Below are positions 4,945 to 13,382 of a stretch of DNA of 64,000 nucleotides, in pieces. A program made the position numbers and the translations under genes. Below the pieces are notes generated by a model. That model worked only from the letters and a program-made list of their open reading frames with translations. It was not told where the DNA came from and did no database searches. The stretch comes from Leeia aquatica (GTDB taxonomy: Bacteria; Pseudomonadota; Gammaproteobacteria; Burkholderiales; Leeiaceae). Location of the stretch: positions 1 to 64,000 of the forward strand of contig NZ_JABAIM010000001.1 in assembly GCF_012641365.1 (NCBI RefSeq), given 5' to 3'. Each line of letters begins with the position of its first letter. Within the stretch, counting starts at the first letter, position 1.

Positions 4945-6731
4945 TCACCTCCTGCCACTGCACGCAGGACGCGCAACGGCTGCTTGAGATCCGTTACCGG
5001 CCCGGACAACTCGGTCGAGAGGGTATCGATCTGGTCTTGAGGAACACCATCAGGAAAGCGTTGTACCAGCCAGGCAAAGCGGTCTACGGTCCAAGCCTCG
5101 CCCACTTTGGCTTTGAGCAACTTGGCCGCTTCAACATGTGTAAGAAGTGGAAGTTCCAGTTGTGGTGCTACCAGGTCGTGGACTGTGCCGCGACGAGGCA
5201 AGTAGGTTGGTAGATCAACATCGTGCAGGTAGGAATGAGCCTTCAGCTCACCCTCAAATGGTGTGATGCGCTTGGCACGTGCGGCCTTGGCCTCATCAGT
5301 TGACAAGCCGGGATAGGCTTGGCCGTCCATTGCTTCAGCTGCACGCTCAATCAGGGTATGCGGCATCGCTTTGTACTCTTCGCCGATGACAGCGCCGGAC
5401 AGCGCTTGGCCGAATTCATCGAAGCCGCGCTCGGGCTCGATCTGATAGATACGATCCTCGCCGTTGTAGCTCGGCACGGTGATCTGGATTGCACAATCGC
5501 CGAACACCATCGCACATACGCCTACCTCATCGCCGCTGCACACCCCATCCAGCCCGCGCAGGCTGTAAATAGCAGAGCGTTCGGCCTGCGGATGTTTGAA
5601 ACTGACCGTCAGATCGGGGCGAACCTTGCGCGTTTCCTCCTTGGCCGTCATGAAAGCGCGGCAGACGTCTACCGGGGGCAGCAGCAGGAGTTGGTCTGCA
5701 CGAATCCGCTGCCAAAGGTCAAAGCGTGCCACCGGTTCGGCAAGCCCCTCACGGCGCAAGCGTGAGTCCTGGCCGGGAATCAGATTGGCGTTCCAGGTGT
5801 TACTCCAGGCGGATGCTGCAGCATTCAGTTGCTCGATGTTCTCAACCGGCTCGAAACGCAGGCGTGACTCGAATTGTGTCTCGACGATGTTGTTGGCACC
5901 TTCAACGCCCCCTTTGGCGCGGGCGTTTCCAGCCTCGTGCTCCAGCGTTTGCACCCCGAGTGCCCGGCACAGGTTTTTGATGGCGGCACTGGTATTGGCA
6001 CTCCCCTTGTCCCACAGCAGGAAGCGGCACAATCCGTGAAACAGCCGCCCCTCCTGCTGCCCCCATGCAAACATCAAAAAATCGAACAGGTTGTGCTGGT
6101 TCTCCCCTGCAGACTCGCAGTACCACACAACAATCACACCGCTGGCCCGGTCATACAGTACATAGCGCCAGACCTTGAACTTGACCTTGGCGTAGTTCTC
6201 CAGCTTGTTCTTGTAGAAGTCACGGTCACGCATGATGTACTGGCGCCCTTTGAGGTAATACACCAGGCAGAGTGACGGATCGATTTCGTGGGTATGGTTC
6301 GGATGCAGCGCGCGCAAGTGCTGTACGGGCTTGATCTCCCGCTGCGCGTCTACGCTGAGCTTACGGTTGCGGATCAGCCGGTTGAGCTGGTTGTTGCTCA
6401 CCTTCAACTCGATGCCGTTCTGCTCCAGCACACCGCGCGCTGTAGTGGTGAACAGCGTCTGTTTGCCGTTGTCGCGCACCGCCTCACGTTGCACGGCCCC
6501 CAGCTTCACCAGCGCGGCCTCACTCACCGAAGTGCTTCCCTTGTCAGACCGCGCCTTGCGTCCGGAACACCAGCCAACAGCCTGCTTCAACTGCCGGTAT
6601 ACGGTTTGAGTCGACCACCCGAGGAACTGGGCGGTTTGAGCCACCAGTGCAGACTGTTCACCATGCCGGGCAGCATCCAGCCTTGACGCCAGCTCGCGCA
6701 GCGTGTCACGAATTTCCGGGGTGATCGCCAT
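4941..6731 (-). CDS. DDE transposase A (MuA/BcepMu type)
   Basis: The 596-residue transposase catalyses strand transfer for integration and replicative transposition. After an N-terminal DNA-binding part come the integrase core and a Mu-type C-terminal domain. Catalytic residues are D151 (HEIDPS), D241 (LLWDKGS) and E277 (AKGGVEGAN). The ATG at 6731 has AGGTGG five bases upstream and is preferred over the GTG at 6740. The gene follows the 332-residue gene after ten bases and is coupled to gene B. Sequence and gene order point to the BcepMu transposase family, not classical MuA. Confidence 0.93.
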   Translation of the reverse strand: MAITPEIRDTLRELASRLDAARHGEQSALVAQTAQFLGWSTQTVYRQLKQAVGWCSGRKARSDKGSTSVSEAALVKLGAVQREAVRDNGKQTLFTTTARGVLEQNGIELKVSNNQLNRLIRNRKLSVDAQREIKPVQHLRALHPNHTHEIDPSLCLVYYLKGRQYIMRDRDFYKNKLENYAKVKFKVWRYVLYDRASGVIVVWYCESAGENQHNLFDFLMFAWGQQEGRLFHGLCRFLLWDKGSANTSAAIKNLCRALGVQTLEHEAGNARAKGGVEGANNIVETQFESRLRFEPVENIEQLNAAASAWSNTWNANLIPGQDSRLRREGLAEPVARFDLWQRIRADQLLLLPPVDVCRAFMTAKEETRKVRPDLTVSFKHPQAERSAIYSLRGLDGVCSGDEVGVCAMVFGDCAIQITVPSYNGEDRIYQIEPERGFDEFGQALSGAVIGEEYKAMPHTLIERAAEAMDGQAYPGLSTDEAKAARAKRITPFEGELKAHSYLHDVDLPTYLPRRGTVHDLVAPQLELPLLTHVEAAKLLKAKVGEAWTVDRFAWLVQRFPDGVPQDQIDTLSTELSGPVTDLKQPLRVLRAVAGGE

Positions 6732-9269: not shown

Positions 9270-9298
9270 ATTATTGTGGATTATTTCCACAATGTCAA
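9270..9298 (-). promoter_or_regulatory. Leftward early promoter
   Basis: On the reverse strand, TTGACA (9298-9293) and AATAAT (9275-9270) are separated by exactly 17 bp. This gives a near-consensus sigma-70 promoter aimed at the early operon, with a start expected near 9263. The inverted repeat at 9273-9293 fills the spacer and touches both hexamers, so a protein bound there should exclude RNA polymerase. Confidence 0.75.
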
Positions 9299-9311
9299 AC
9301 GGAATTGTGGA
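9273..9311. promoter_or_regulatory. Repressor operator region
   Basis: A perfect inverted repeat ATTGTGGA-N5-TCCACAAT (9273-9293) is followed by a third direct copy of ATTGTGGA at 9304-9311. The first repeat lies between the -35 and -10 of the early promoter and covers the ATG (9292) of the divergent repressor gene. This suggests repression of the early operon plus autoregulation. Confidence 0.7.
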
Positions 9312-9768
9312 TTTGATACACGTTCGCTTGAAGGATGAACTAGACCGCCTTGGTCTAAAGCCCGCTGTAGCAGCGAAGGCCGCTGGCGAACCCGACTCTC
9401 AGGGCCTGAGGGATGTTCTTGGTGGGCGAAAACGGCTGTCGGCCGACCTGCTGGCGGCATTGGCAGCGGTTGGTGTTGACGTGCAGTTCATCCTCACCGG
9501 CCAGCGGCAAGGCCATGGCATTGGTGAGGCGGCAGTACATCAAGCGGTGCTGGACGCTGTGGATTTACTCTCACTGGAAAAGAAGGTGGACGCTCAGCAG
9601 TTGGCCAATGCGGTGGTCAAACTGGTGTCCAAAAGCAGCAGTTCTGCTTCACCAACCAGTACCAAAGTACAGGTGGGCGGTGATTTTCATGGACAGCTGG
9701 TCGAGGGAAACGTTAATAACACGGGCAAGATAAATATTGGCACCACCAAAAACATAGGGAAGAAGTAA
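9292..9768 (+). CDS. CI-type phage repressor with Gly/Asn-rich C-terminal motif
   Basis: The 158-residue product is divergent from the early operon, the place of the lysogeny repressor. Residues ~11-70 form a Cro/CI helix-turn-helix (LKDELDRLGLKPAVAAKAAG, then a GLRDVLGGRKRLSADLLAAL helix). A Ser-rich linker (114-124) leads to a Gly/Asn tail with GGDFHGQLVEGNVNN (129-143). A nearly identical motif opens the next gene's product. The ATG at 9292 lies in the operator and has no good ribosome-binding site. TTG 9247 and GTG 9262 are in-frame alternatives. No peptidase domain for RecA-type self-cleavage is visible. Confidence 0.75.
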   Translation: MSNGIVDLIHVRLKDELDRLGLKPAVAAKAAGEPDSQGLRDVLGGRKRLSADLLAALAAVGVDVQFILTGQRQGHGIGEAAVHQAVLDAVDLLSLEKKVDAQQLANAVVKLVSKSSSSASPTSTKVQVGGDFHGQLVEGNVNNTGKINIGTTKNIGKK

Positions 9769-9776
9769 CACGCAGC

Positions 9777-10547
9777 ATGGAAGAGGCCAAGCAAGACATC
9801 CGGGGTGACTTCAATGGCCAGCTGGCCAACGGCAACATCAACAACTACAACTACCAGGACCGAGAGAAGCTGAGCGAGGCTGATGCCTATCCTATCGGTA
9901 AAAAAGTACAAGAGCTGCTCAAATTAACCGGTAGGGAGCAACCCGCTGTATGGGGTGAACTGAAACGCATTTTTGGCGCAGGTTACAAAGATCTATACAA
10001 GGACCAGCTCCTTGCCGCCCATGCCATTCTGGACGGATGGATCATGCAGGCCAAGAATGAGGATGCTGTCAGAAACTGCCAGCTCAAACATGAGGTCGAT
10101 GCCAGAAAAGCCCAGATAGACTTGCGCGAAGCCCAGCAGAGGCTGGCAACAGTGCAGCAACGACTGGACGCCGCGCATACATTGGCCAGCGACACCCGCA
10201 TCCGCCACCAGCAAGAGAAAGCAGAGTGCGACACACGCGTCAAGGTAGCCAGGAATGCATTACTGCGCTGGAAAAGTGGCATGTCAGCGCTACTGCTGCT
10301 GGCTCTGCTTGCTTCTGCTGCTGTCGCAGTCATGTACGGGCTGTATTCGCACAAGTCGGCACAAGCGGAGAGCTTGGCCCTGCAACTGGCAGCCAAACCG
10401 GTACCGTCGCCACAGTGCATGCACGAGAGCCTGACCTACGGCTTGGGCAGTGTACTGGATCGCAAGGGAACGCCAGATTGGCGCTGTGTCGTGAAAGATG
10501 GTCAAGCCAGCTGGGAAGAGGTCAAGCTCAAGACCAAGCGTAAGTAG
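9777..10547 (+). CDS. Membrane-anchored coiled-coil protein sharing the repressor's tail motif
   Basis: This 256-residue protein starts eight bases after the repressor gene. Residues 10-23 (GDFNGQLANGNINN) repeat the repressor's C-terminal motif. A short helical domain (~40-92) is followed by a coiled coil (~100-165), one transmembrane helix (~169-189) and a C-terminal domain with two cysteines. No signal peptide precedes the N-terminal motif, so the motif and coiled coil should be cytoplasmic with the tail outside. It could bind the repressor at the membrane or act in superinfection exclusion; both are inferences. I know no named family. Confidence 0.7.
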   Translation: MEEAKQDIRGDFNGQLANGNINNYNYQDREKLSEADAYPIGKKVQELLKLTGREQPAVWGELKRIFGAGYKDLYKDQLLAAHAILDGWIMQAKNEDAVRNCQLKHEVDARKAQIDLREAQQRLATVQQRLDAAHTLASDTRIRHQQEKAECDTRVKVARNALLRWKSGMSALLLLALLASAAVAVMYGLYSHKSAQAESLALQLAAKPVPSPQCMHESLTYGLGSVLDRKGTPDWRCVVKDGQASWEEVKLKTKRK

Positions 10548-10580: not shown

Positions 10581-11102
10581 GTGCGTCGTAAGCTGCTGTT
10601 CATGTCAATCCTGATTGTCGGATGTGCCTATGCATCCAGCCCTGCTGAGGTCGAACACTATGTGAAAGATCTGGACACCGCGATCAAGGCCTCGACAGCG
10701 GTACTGAAGAAAAGTGACCTCGCAAGCCTGCGCCAGCACAGCACCAAAATGAATGAGCTGAAAAAGGCAGGCGAGAAGTATGGCACCACTGCATTTGACC
10801 TCCCCTATGGCCGCTGCTTTAGCTCGGGGGTCATGGCCCAGGAATGGTGGTCTGCACAATTGACTGCCGCCCAGAATGGTGGCGTCGAACGAACCCCCGG
10901 CAGGATTGACAGTGCGTGGAAGCAGTACCAATCAAACCGGGCTGAATGCCTTAAAGCAGCTCACTCTGGTGGTAAGGCCCCTGGCACCGTGGTGATCGCC
11001 TCCGCAAGTGAAACGCCGCCACGTAAGGGATGCCTGAAGGTCTTGGGTGTTCGACCGGATGGCACTGTAGGTACTACTGCCTATACCTGCCCGAAGCAAT
11101 GA
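10581..11102 (+). CDS. Predicted lipoprotein or secreted cargo protein
   Basis: A 173-residue product starts at GTG 10581 after ATGGAGAAC. MRRKLLFMSILIVGC is a short signal peptide with a lipobox-like IVGC, so it is probably lipidated at Cys15; cleavage after AYA is the alternative. The mature part contains three further cysteines and a C-terminal segment with VLGVRPDGTVGTTAYTCP. It follows the membrane protein gene by 33 bases and may be coexpressed with it from lysogens. No family recognised. Confidence 0.65.
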   Translation: MRRKLLFMSILIVGCAYASSPAEVEHYVKDLDTAIKASTAVLKKSDLASLRQHSTKMNELKKAGEKYGTTAFDLPYGRCFSSGVMAQEWWSAQLTAAQNGGVERTPGRIDSAWKQYQSNRAECLKAAHSGGKAPGTVVIASASETPPRKGCLKVLGVRPDGTVGTTAYTCPKQ

Positions 11103-11256
11103 TCCCCATCAGGGAAAGCATGCAAATCCAAGAGACAACCCTGCGATCAACATCGCTTTTAGACTTTGAACAACTGACGAACAGCATCTGAAGCTTGCCA
11201 AGCAGATGTGATTAAGACTGATAAGTTACCAAAACGACGAACAGAAGGGTTTGCAA

Positions 11257-12132
11257 ATGGCTCGGGATCGTACCGTAGAGATTGGGGGAATCAACATTGT
11301 CACGCACCCGCACGCGCCTGCTGGTTATGTACGGCTACTGTATGCCGCTTTTGAATTAAGGCAAAGCATACGTATCCGCAAAGATCAGCACCTCATGCTG
11401 GGGGAGATACGAGCTATAGATGGTGAGAAACCTGAAAATGGTCTTATCGGGAAGTTATATCGCTTTGTGAATATAGACAAAGATGCTCCATGGCTAAACA
11501 TAAAAAGTCAGGTCGTGGCAACAGAGGAGGAGCGGGCTCGTATTCACATCCCAGAGAACCTGCGCCCTAACCTAGAACAGTTTGGTTTCGTATTTTACCC
11601 TCATGGGCATACGTTTTATTTTGAAAGCAATTCTTTCAAAAAGTCGCTGAGCCCTAGGCAAGTTTTCAAGTTACTAGACATACTATTTTCGCATCCAGAT
11701 ATAGTGGCGGAGTTTGGTCCAGTTGATGTGACCATCCTTCCAGACCGTGATCAGCTTGAAAATATCCTCAAGATGCCAACCCTGCGCAAACTCACAATCG
11801 TGGTTCAGAAACCTAATGCGGATGAACTAGGAGATGCAGAGAAACGTGTTTTTGACCGAATGAGGAGTCAAAATGCACGTAGGACCACCCTGGAAATCAC
11901 GGCTGAACTTAGGCAGTCTCTAGAGCTGGATGAAGACATACGTGAACTGGCACGTGTTGCAGCAAGCAACGGGAAAGTTCATGGCTCGGGCTTCGGCATT
12001 GGGGGCGAACGGTTAGAGGAGTCTACCGTTGCCAAGCCTTGGCTGGAAAAAATATCGTACAATCCAGACCTACAGCTTCCTGATGAAGCACTGATAGCAG
12101 CAACGGAGAGACGACCTGGACATGGCGACTAA
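11257..12132 (+). CDS. DUF4747 family protein
   Basis: This 291-residue protein fits the DUF4747 family as I remember it. It has an N-terminal HPHAPAGYVRLLYAAFELRQ region, the GKLYRFVNIDKDAPWLNI segment, ENLRPNLEQFGFVFYPHGH, then EFGPVDVTI and a C-terminal EESTVAKPWLEKISYNPD. The molecular role of the family is not known to me. The ATG at 11257 has AGAAGGG seven bases upstream. The DNA is clearly richer in A+T than the neighbouring phage genes, which suggests separate acquisition. It overlaps the following membrane-protein gene by 11 bases, so the two are a unit. Confidence 0.75.
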   Translation: MARDRTVEIGGINIVTHPHAPAGYVRLLYAAFELRQSIRIRKDQHLMLGEIRAIDGEKPENGLIGKLYRFVNIDKDAPWLNIKSQVVATEEERARIHIPENLRPNLEQFGFVFYPHGHTFYFESNSFKKSLSPRQVFKLLDILFSHPDIVAEFGPVDVTILPDRDQLENILKMPTLRKLTIVVQKPNADELGDAEKRVFDRMRSQNARRTTLEITAELRQSLELDEDIRELARVAASNGKVHGSGFGIGGERLEESTVAKPWLEKISYNPDLQLPDEALIAATERRPGHGD

Positions 12133-12703
12133 TCAAAAAGAGAAGGGCGATGGTCATGGGCTGCTCGAAATCTTAAAGCTGTACTGGGCAGCTTACGGAG
12201 GCTGGAGAGCGCTCTGGCGGTCACCATACCTGTGGCTTTCTTTTTGCTTGCTGCTGCTCACAACGCATTACTGGCTTACCGAAGCTTGGTGGGAGCAGGT
12301 CTTTTCAGTTATGCCTAGCATGCTTGGATTCACACTTGGTGGTTTTGCTGTGTTTCTTGGCTTTGGGGATGAAAAGTTCAAATCTATCATTAGTGGACAA
12401 ATGCCTGAAGATGGGGGGCGCCCGTCTCCATACCTAGAAGTTAGCGCAACCTTTTTGCACTTTGTCTTGGTTCAAATGATCGCTCTAATTTCTGCTGTTA
12501 TTGCTCGAGCAACAAATTTTGCGTTGCCAGTAGAATTCTCTTGTCTTACAAAAATGCTTGGGATAATTCGTGTTTTAGGTGACATGGTTGGTTATTGGCT
12601 CTACCTCTATGGCTTATGTATTACTGCAGCAGCAGCATTAGCAATTTTTCGTACTGCACATTGGTATGACACACACCAAACTAATAATCGAGAAAATCAA
12701 TAG
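12122..12703 (+). CDS. Four-helix membrane protein paired with DUF4747
   Basis: The 193-residue product has about four hydrophobic segments: residues ~34-47, ~60-82, ~108-128 and ~150-172. The segment MPSMLGFTLGGFAVFLGFGD is typical of pore-like or sensor membrane proteins of unknown type. It overlaps the DUF4747 gene by 11 bases and shares its low GC. A soluble protein coupled to a small multi-pass membrane protein is a common architecture of phage-borne exclusion or abortive-infection modules; this is inference only. It is the last gene before the late lysis block. Confidence 0.7.
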   Translation: MATNQKEKGDGHGLLEILKLYWAAYGGWRALWRSPYLWLSFCLLLLTTHYWLTEAWWEQVFSVMPSMLGFTLGGFAVFLGFGDEKFKSIISGQMPEDGGRPSPYLEVSATFLHFVLVQMIALISAVIARATNFALPVEFSCLTKMLGIIRVLGDMVGYWLYLYGLCITAAAALAIFRTAHWYDTHQTNNRENQ

Positions 12704-12706
12704 GTA

Positions 12707-12762
12707 GCATTAAACCAGATTAAAAGCCCGCTCCAGACATGACGCCCACAATGGCGTCATGT
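12707..12762 (+). promoter_or_regulatory. Candidate late promoter 1 (lysis/packaging block)
   Basis: An interrupted palindrome GCATTAA-N6-TTAAAAG (12707-12726) is followed 20 bases later by CACAAT (12747-12752). CACAAT is the loop of a perfect 10-bp inverted repeat ACATGACGCC / GGCGTCATGT (12737-12762). The same layout occurs at 20059. With CACAAT as -10, transcription would start near 12759 and the mRNA would carry the GGAG ribosome-binding site before the endolysin ATG. The position matches Mu Plys. Confidence 0.6.
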
Positions 12763-12780
12763 TCACTTCTGGAGTAGGTC

Positions 12781-13188
12781 ATGTCCAGCCGTAGCCTGCA
12801 GCACCTCCACCCCGTCCTACAACCCATCTGTCAGGAGTTCCTGCGCCAAACGGCAGCTGCCGGGCTGGACATCCTCATCGTCTGCACCTGGCGCTCAAAT
12901 GCCGAGCAAGACGAACTCTATGCCAAGGGTCGCAGTGAACCCGGCCCTCGCGTCACCAATGCACGCGCCGGGCAATCTGCCCACAACCACACCATCCAGG
13001 GCCAGCCCGCTTCGTGTGCATTCGATATTGTCCCGATGCAGGCAGGCAAGCCCGTGTGGGATGCCAAGCATCCACACTGGCAGAAGGCAGGCCAGATCGG
13101 CATGGCATTGGGGCTCAACTGGTATGGCAAGCCGGGGGCACCATTCCGGGAGTTTCCGCACTTTGAACTGCCACGGGATCGTTGGTAA
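12781..13188 (+). CDS. Endolysin, M15 family peptidase (L-alanyl-D-glutamate type)
   Basis: This 135-residue enzyme should cut peptidoglycan cross-bridge peptides during lysis. It shows the M15/VanY metal-site pattern: SAHNH (residues ~75-79), a following CAFDIV and the final FPHFELP, giving the His, Asp, His ligands. No signal peptide is seen, so release depends on the holin encoded next. GGAG precedes the ATG. The holin start overlaps its stop (TAATG). Confidence 0.88.
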   Translation: MSSRSLQHLHPVLQPICQEFLRQTAAAGLDILIVCTWRSNAEQDELYAKGRSEPGPRVTNARAGQSAHNHTIQGQPASCAFDIVPMQAGKPVWDAKHPHWQKAGQIGMALGLNWYGKPGAPFREFPHFELPRDRW

Positions 13189-13382
13189 TGAGGCCGAAGC
13201 GCTGGTTCACCAGTAAAACCATCTGGTTGAACGTCATTGCAGCAGGCCTGGTTGCGCTGGAAGCAGGCTGGGGTGTGCTTCAACCTGTACTGCCGGTCAA
13301 TTTCTACGCCTTGATGGCAACGCTGTTGCCAGTCGCCAATGCGGTTTTGCGAGTGCTCACGCAACAAGGCATTTCACGATGA
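13188..13382 (+). CDS. Holin-like membrane protein
   Basis: A 64-residue protein with a basic start (MRPKRWFTSKTIWLN) and two hydrophobic helices separated by a short PVLPVN turn. Size, topology and its place between endolysin and spanin genes make it the likely holin that opens the inner membrane. The ATG at 13188 overlaps the endolysin stop, which indicates translational coupling. Confidence 0.75.
   Translation: MRPKRWFTSKTIWLNVIAAGLVALEAGWGVLQPVLPVNFYALMATLLPVANAVLRVLTQQGISR

Follow-up and report, generated by a model that had tools for sequence, protein, structure and literature searches.

What does a pair of overlapping, AT-rich genes do in the accessory slot of a prophage, between the repressor and the lysis genes? 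Such a pair is present in the 64,000-nt stretch of the Leeia aquatica genome that was analysed as a whole (the window). An earlier note, made from the DNA sequence alone, had taken it for a candidate undescribed defence or exclusion module in which a sensor and an effector might act at the membrane against other phages or on the host. Our analysis suggests, with a probability of roughly three in four, that the two genes, a moron in a Mu-like prophage, form a Rex-type cassette for abortive phage exclusion. The features of the region are given in Table 1.

Table 1. Features of the gene pair and its surroundings (positions in the window)
Feature	Position	Strand	Remarks
Repressor-like gene	9295-9768	+	phrog_17822 (function unassigned) 8.4e-7; HTH by reading of the sequence
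Gene between repressor-like gene and pair	9777-10547	+	phrog_6521 'membrane protein', PHROGs moron class
Second gene between repressor-like gene and pair	10581-11102	+	phrog_23218, function unassigned
AT-rich stretch 5′ of the pair	11103-11256	+	44% GC
DUF4747 gene	11257-12132	+	ATG 11257, stop 12132; 291 aa; predicted RexA/RdgC-fold cytoplasmic sensor
Membrane partner gene	12122-12703	+	193 aa; phrog_20580 type; predicted effector
Strong hairpin in the pair/endolysin gap	12730-12775	+	MFE -31.5 kcal/mol for 12704-12790, z -5.25
Endolysin gene, first lysis gene after the pair	12781-13188	+	phrog_465 1e-25; PF02557 VanY 24.3 bits (cut-off 25, just missed)
Holin-like gene	13182-13382	+	phrog_5847 6.7e-7

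The gene pair within its prophage

The span that the earlier note had given for the pair (11103-12720) resolves into a DUF4747 gene and a gene for a membrane protein, called the partner in the following, which have 11 nt in common; it also takes in 154 nt upstream of the DUF4747 gene. The low GC content noticed there is borne out by measurement. With 46.6% GC against 58.9% for the whole window, the pair is the AT-richest stretch of the window. Three of the 1252 equal-length sliding stretches have a GC content as low as or below that of the pair, and the 8 stretches that come within 0.01 of it all start between 11101 and 11451. GC3 amounts to 0.44 in the DUF4747 gene and to 0.39 in the partner gene, whereas seven further genes of the prophage gave 0.57-0.79.

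Judged from its gene content, the surrounding prophage is Mu-like. On the minus strand we detected genes for the Mor activator (PF08765, 143 bits), GemA (PF06252, 113 bits) and a MuB-like AAA protein (PF13401), together with a transposase-like gene that reaches 30.9 bits for rve, just below the cut-off. Gp27 (PF11985, 167.5 bits) and the Mu portal protein (PF06074, 323.7 bits) are encoded on the plus strand. The proposed slot between repressor and lysis genes also fits: the repressor-like gene, whose family matches in Pfam and PHROGs are weak throughout, is the first of a plus-strand gene run which leads to the pair and then to the endolysin and holin-like genes. The pair is read in the same direction as the repressor-like gene and against the direction of the early genes.

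No consensus promoter was found in the AT-rich stretch in front of the pair. Of the promoter-like sites in the region, the best (TTGACA-17-AATAAT, 9298 to 9270) lies on the minus strand and points towards the early genes, and the number of such sites is that expected by chance. The scans for promoters (3 found, 3.2 expected) and for terminators (3 found, 5.0 expected) stayed at chance level. Between the pair and the endolysin gene, the stability of the fold of 12704-12790 was equalled by none of 200 shuffles. The hairpin contained in it is not a textbook terminator, because no U-run follows it.

Pairing of the two genes and their genomic settings

The first gene fits DUF4747, as had been proposed: its product matches PF15931 over the whole profile (1-257 of 257) with 231.4 bits at a cut-off of 27 (1.6e-68). 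In PHROGs, the DUF4747 gene corresponds to phrog_10040 (4.3e-70) and the partner to phrog_20580 (2.5e-42), both of unassigned function. DUF4747 is rare. In samples of genomes, it occurred in 1 of 274 from the class, in 6 of 398 from the phylum and in 3 of 399 from the order, with the window's own genome included in each count. Four kinds of search yielded the DUF4747 loci that were collected for comparison: 8 loci were obtained from whole genomes, 3 from plasmids, 14 from viral contigs and 8 from named genomes. Two of them (L001, L002) are the window itself, the sequence of L055 is that of L011, and L018/L019 as well as L028/L029 each represent one pair.

A survey of gene neighbourhoods had been suggested in the earlier note, where DUF4747 occurring everywhere without this partner was named as an outcome speaking against a module. 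The survey found the partner directly downstream on the same strand in 30 of the 31 non-window loci, at a spacing of -179 to +38 nt according to mechanical ORF calls. When the six loci used for building the partner profile are left out, 24 of 25 remain. The sole exception (L009) consists of a cut-down DUF4747 frame without partner. Starting from the partner, 19 non-window loci were obtained, four of them (L044, L045, L047, L049) already known from the DUF4747 side. A DUF4747 gene lies upstream in 17, unbroken in 16 and in two pieces in L034, and is missing from L032 and L033. The pairing is near-obligate. It extends to the divergent loci L008 and L010, for which both profiles give low scores (35.6 and 18.3 bits, 23.4 and 24.3 bits) and whose partners still carry a PSLLGF stretch.

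The divergences of the two proteins are also correlated. For 33 pairs, one near-duplicate having been dropped from 34, the Mantel test gave r = 0.806, a value reached by none of 10,000 permutations (highest 0.234). Correlated divergence and pairing are most simply explained by joint inheritance of the two genes. A tblastn search with both proteins against 50,697 phage records, a set from which records near the window are possibly absent, gave no match.

Three of the 19 partner-first loci hold an intact membrane gene without a whole DUF4747 gene, as read from the genes alone. In L032 and L033 DUF4747 is gone save for its 3′ end, and in L034, a close relative of L031, it is the gene in two pieces mentioned above. 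These are lambda-like prophages (positions about 5000-6600) with the sensor gene lost or interrupted. Loss in L032/L033 and break in L034 are probably two events; it is possible that the interruption in L034 is a sequencing error. A membrane protein encoded without DUF4747 fits an effector that is silent until it is switched on.

The locus neighbours were read at 10 loci. The closest relative of the window pair (L018; 50% for DUF4747, 47% for the partner) belongs to another Mu-like phage, where the pair lies in the structural region, between the Mu F-like and Mu protease I genes (order read in L019, the same pair). The positions of this pair are 468-2004 in L018 and 2999-4535 in L019. In the lambda-like prophage L031 the pair follows NinG and antitermination Q and precedes a KilA-N gene, in L020 it is found one small gene past the tape-measure gene, and in L051 it adjoins the integrase. 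Two 11-kb Acinetobacter plasmids hold the pair beside toxin-antitoxin genes, and their annotation contains no phage switch. Among contigs, it also occurs in those of Nitrosovibrio and Mesorhizobium, alongside which no phage genes were recognised by reading, and in Agrobacterium. In the related Pseudomonas phage JBD67, no such pair is annotated in the matching region. Given these unrelated slots in prophages of the Mu-like and the lambda-like type, on small plasmids and on further contigs, the pair looks like a free-moving cassette and not like a gene for structure or lysis that belongs to a single phage family.

Predicted structures and known Rex-type systems

The AlphaFold2 model of the DUF4747 protein, built with 34 aligned sequences, has a mean pLDDT of 91.1. 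In a Foldseek search against 350,542 PDB chains, lambda RexA took the first two ranks (8twq_B, E 2.8e-6, prob 1.00; chain A of 8twq, E 5.4e-4), followed by E. coli RdgC (E 8.6e-4), another RdgC and kinetochore chains. With VIA, RexA (Z 7.3, rmsd 4.8, 137 residues aligned) is tied with CENP-N-type kinetochore chains, at a Z below the value of 8 under which, according to the tool's own warning, a match may reflect merely a common arrangement; Iml3 chains are listed as well. We take CENP-N to correspond to CHL4. The fold relatives named for RexA are RdgC and IML3/CHL4 (PMC11077077), and the retrieval of both RdgC and Iml3 with our model supports a RexA-type fold. The whole-chain TM-score against RexA is low (0.27). 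This would fit domains in differing positions, and a domain movement linking the closed form in the crystal with a modelled open one has been proposed for RexA (PMC11077077). For the predicted model, the fold is of the RexA/RdgC type, with a VIA value in the middle range. Five uncharacterised phage proteins in the viral fold library BFVD match the model with E 3.3e-9 or better.

The partner was described in the earlier note as a four-helix membrane protein. It is indeed hydrophobic, and its AlphaFold2 model (pLDDT 88.5) is all-helical, but the number of helices is not sharp: the hydropathy count gives 3 segments at a threshold of 1.5 and 5 at 1.1, and 3 to 5 hydrophobic segments for the homologues. 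In the 35-sequence alignment, YGG is conserved near the N terminus, a PSLLGF-type motif in the second hydrophobic segment and an ATFxHF-type motif, together with Q118, in the next. Invariant in 35 of 35 sequences are S34, P65, F70, Q118 and, in the last segment, Y163. The two ends and the loop 81-104 contain 18 of the 27 charged residues, which would fit a cytoplasmic location of both ends and of this central loop. A like topology was reported for Sbash gp31, in which the loop mutants R70A and D73A are inactive (PMC6426596).

Fold searches with the partner in the PDB and in the viral library gave no significant match. Orai (CRAC channel) appeared at rank 2 in the PDB (Z 8.4, rmsd 3.1, 100 residues); helical bundles below about Z 13 can match by chance, so no claim is made from it. 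Rank 2 of 138 in BFVD is a 165-aa Sbash protein of the length of gp31, at a non-significant E of 0.72. RexB does not appear by name among the best 50 of these 138 matches, which means little. Phage ctylc9 contributes one protein to each of the two viral lists (A0A8S5S8L2, A0A8S5S8H0), at rank 2 for DUF4747 (E 2.0e-13) and at rank 12 for the partner (E 1.8). As a lead only, the pair may have a remoter counterpart in ctylc9.

Five Rex-type systems have been described, namely those of lambda, RexABpp, CarolAnn, Sbash and Butters, and in the first four of them both genes are reported to be needed, with the membrane protein as effector (PMC12894663). In the literature, lambda RexA, Sbash gp30, CarolAnn gp44 and Butters gp30 are given a weak DUF4747 label, and each has a four-pass membrane protein as its neighbour. 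For Butters the label is, in the authors' own wording, a weak HHpred match (probability 69, E 140; PMC7542560), and the CarolAnn label likewise stems from a weak HHpred match by its authors. Neither the CarolAnn nor the Butters proteins match PF15931 up to E 10. The full DUF4747 protein of the window reaches RexA by predicted fold, which supports the published label from the other side and tightens a link between RexA and DUF4747 that had been loose.

The window pair has the layout of these systems, with the gene for the membrane protein following at once on the same strand. Since the same arrangement has been published as Rex type (for lambda, CarolAnn, Sbash and Butters, and by fold for RexABpp), the description of the pair as undescribed is not supported. 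The Rex-type design is already known, and the window pair probably represents a branch of it to which, by the profile matches, the Rex models of Pfam and PADLOC do not respond. The models for lambda RexA and RexB (PF15969, PF15968, PDLC02339, PDLC02340) matched the lambda proteins, used as positive control, and did not match the window proteins up to E 1. With PADLOC neither gene of the pair was recognised, NCBIfam gave no match over its cut-off, and a sequence search of the PDB with the DUF4747 and partner alignments gave no useful match.

No sequence link to the known systems was obtained with hhalign, whether single sequences, larger alignments or families were compared. The DUF4747 alignments against the RexA, CarolAnn/Sbash/Sejanus and Butters proteins, and the partner alignments against RexB, gp43/gp31 and Butters gp31, reached a probability of 0.52% at most. 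Comparison of RexA with CarolAnn/Sbash/Sejanus and of RexB with gp43/gp31 was also blank. As the accepted Rex members are themselves mutually invisible in these comparisons, the missing sequence link is not counted against Rex membership.

Lambda RexAB resembles the window pair in the fold of the first protein (by structure search), in the two co-directional genes with the sensor first and a small membrane protein second, and in its place on the repressor side of the switch. It differs in that neither protein shows detectable sequence similarity, in belonging to a lambda-like and not a Mu-like phage, and in that two genes intervene between the repressor-like gene and the pair in the window. 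CarolAnn gp44/gp43 and Sbash gp30/gp31 are reported to combine a DUF4747-labelled and a four-pass membrane protein; in each pair the two genes overlap. However, their first proteins have 370 and 372 aa compared with 291 aa in the window, that of CarolAnn matches no Pfam family up to E 10, and the YGG, PSLLGF and ATFxHF motifs are absent from their partners by reading.

RexABpp (PP_5643/PP_5644, prophage P1 of P. putida) is the like case from a proteobacterial prophage, with a RexA-like fold and a four-helix membrane effector and with both genes needed, as far as its description in PMC12894663 goes; 'DUF' does not occur in the main text of that paper. The RexA-like protein binds DNA and is harmful on over-expression only together with the membrane protein (PMC12894663). 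Among 38 mutants that grew well, the prophage was gone from 30 and the expression cassette from one, and the remaining seven were mutated in the membrane gene; leaky membranes were seen in part of the cells, and depolarisation was not measurable (PMC12894663). Butters gp30/gp31 agrees in gene order, localisation and the weak DUF4747 label and shows no sequence link; it differs from the favoured reading of the window pair in that gp30 alone is antiviral (PMC7542560).

In proteobacteria, a Salmonella isolate carries a DUF4747 gene whose next locus tag is a 606-bp hypothetical gene (PMC11181664). A 'DUF4747/CarolAnn prophage system' is listed, without further treatment in the text available, among the immune operons behind capK-capS (17 of 443 capK loci; PMC13373217, 2026). 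DUF4747 is mentioned in five of 5.39 million open papers, whose accessible portions contain no test of the proteobacterial pair.

Putative mode of action and alternative explanations

Pairing in 30 of 31 loci and the RexA fold match make a sensor/effector pair acting at the membrane against phages the best reading, which the earlier note had held plausible; it is not an undescribed kind of system. The module is real and probably consists of a sensor and a membrane effector. By analogy, it would follow the order of events described for RexABpp and CarolAnn, the latter also reported, like Sbash, to require both genes. The pair would be expressed in the lysogen, as in its relatives, with the DUF4747 protein as a putative dimeric DNA-binding sensor and the membrane protein from the overlapping downstream gene silent when alone. 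When a different phage multiplies in the lysogen, its DNA or one of its proteins may change the sensor, and the changed sensor would switch on the membrane protein. Once active, it would break the integrity of the membrane, so that growth stops and the infection aborts. Regarding the sensor, 27 DUF4747 positions are conserved in 80% or more of the 34 sequences and none of them is Lys or Arg; the protein of the window, with 40 K+R versus 44 D+E, is slightly acidic as well, so that the sequence gives no support for DNA binding.

The same two genes could work with the opposite polarity, the DUF4747 protein itself being antiviral and the membrane protein only tethering it until infection. The precedent is Butters, where gp30 alone blocks PurpleHaze and gp31 dampens gp30 (PMC7542560), and the layout and pairing of our genes fit it equally well. 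We nevertheless consider it unlikely: the partner has invariant residues well beyond its start, its gene stays intact where DUF4747 is lost or broken, and the other four described systems require both genes and have the membrane protein as effector (PMC12894663). The intact membrane genes of L032, L033 and L034 speak also against a toxin-antitoxin or addiction pair, with the membrane protein as toxin and DUF4747 as antitoxin. Overlapping genes, near-obligate pairing and the company of toxin-antitoxin genes on the small plasmids would suit such a pair. Usual antitoxins, however, are unlike a protein of 291 aa with a predicted RexA/RdgC fold, and we hold this explanation to be very improbable.

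Even less probable is a role in lysis-lysogeny control, in which the switch of the prophage itself would be the main target of DUF4747, an action reported for RexA. The pair does lie on the repressor side of the switch, but small plasmids without an annotated phage switch carry the cassette as well, and therefore the switch cannot be the general target. The least credible explanation is that the two genes time lysis in this phage as holin and antiholin. Their place directly before the endolysin gene and the membrane character of the partner would allow for this. A holin-like gene is already present, however, a hairpin separates the pair from the lysis genes, GC and GC3 differ, and elsewhere the cassette is found in structural regions, on plasmids and on contigs without a recognised adjoining lysis gene.

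With the Rex-type reading, an unnamed AT-rich gene pair becomes a testable system. It would also add a defence family to which, in the proteins scanned, PADLOC's models of 2023 do not respond. How Rex sensors perceive infection is a question that is decades old, and a compact branch present in several proteobacterial groups, whose partner proteins share strong motifs, supplies natural variants for studying it. A more far-reaching proposal is possible, although we rather doubt it as a whole: DUF4747 and the YGG/PSLLGF/ATFxHF partner might form a separate proteobacterial branch with RexA/RdgC fold and a co-evolving effector unrelated to RexB, spread as a free cassette through transposable and lambda-like phages, plasmids and chromosomes; the effector would then be a new type of pore gated by a DNA clamp.

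The two genes that separate the pair from the repressor-like gene might likewise serve in exclusion. No Pfam family matched them, and their GC content is normal, unlike that of the pair. Where the repressor-like gene gives way to the gene after it (9680-9840 in the window), a glycine/asparagine motif occurs on both sides, at the C-terminus of the first protein (GGDFHGQLVEGNVNN) and at the N-terminus of the second (RGDFNGQLANGNINN), as if the neighbouring proteins had a small domain in common.
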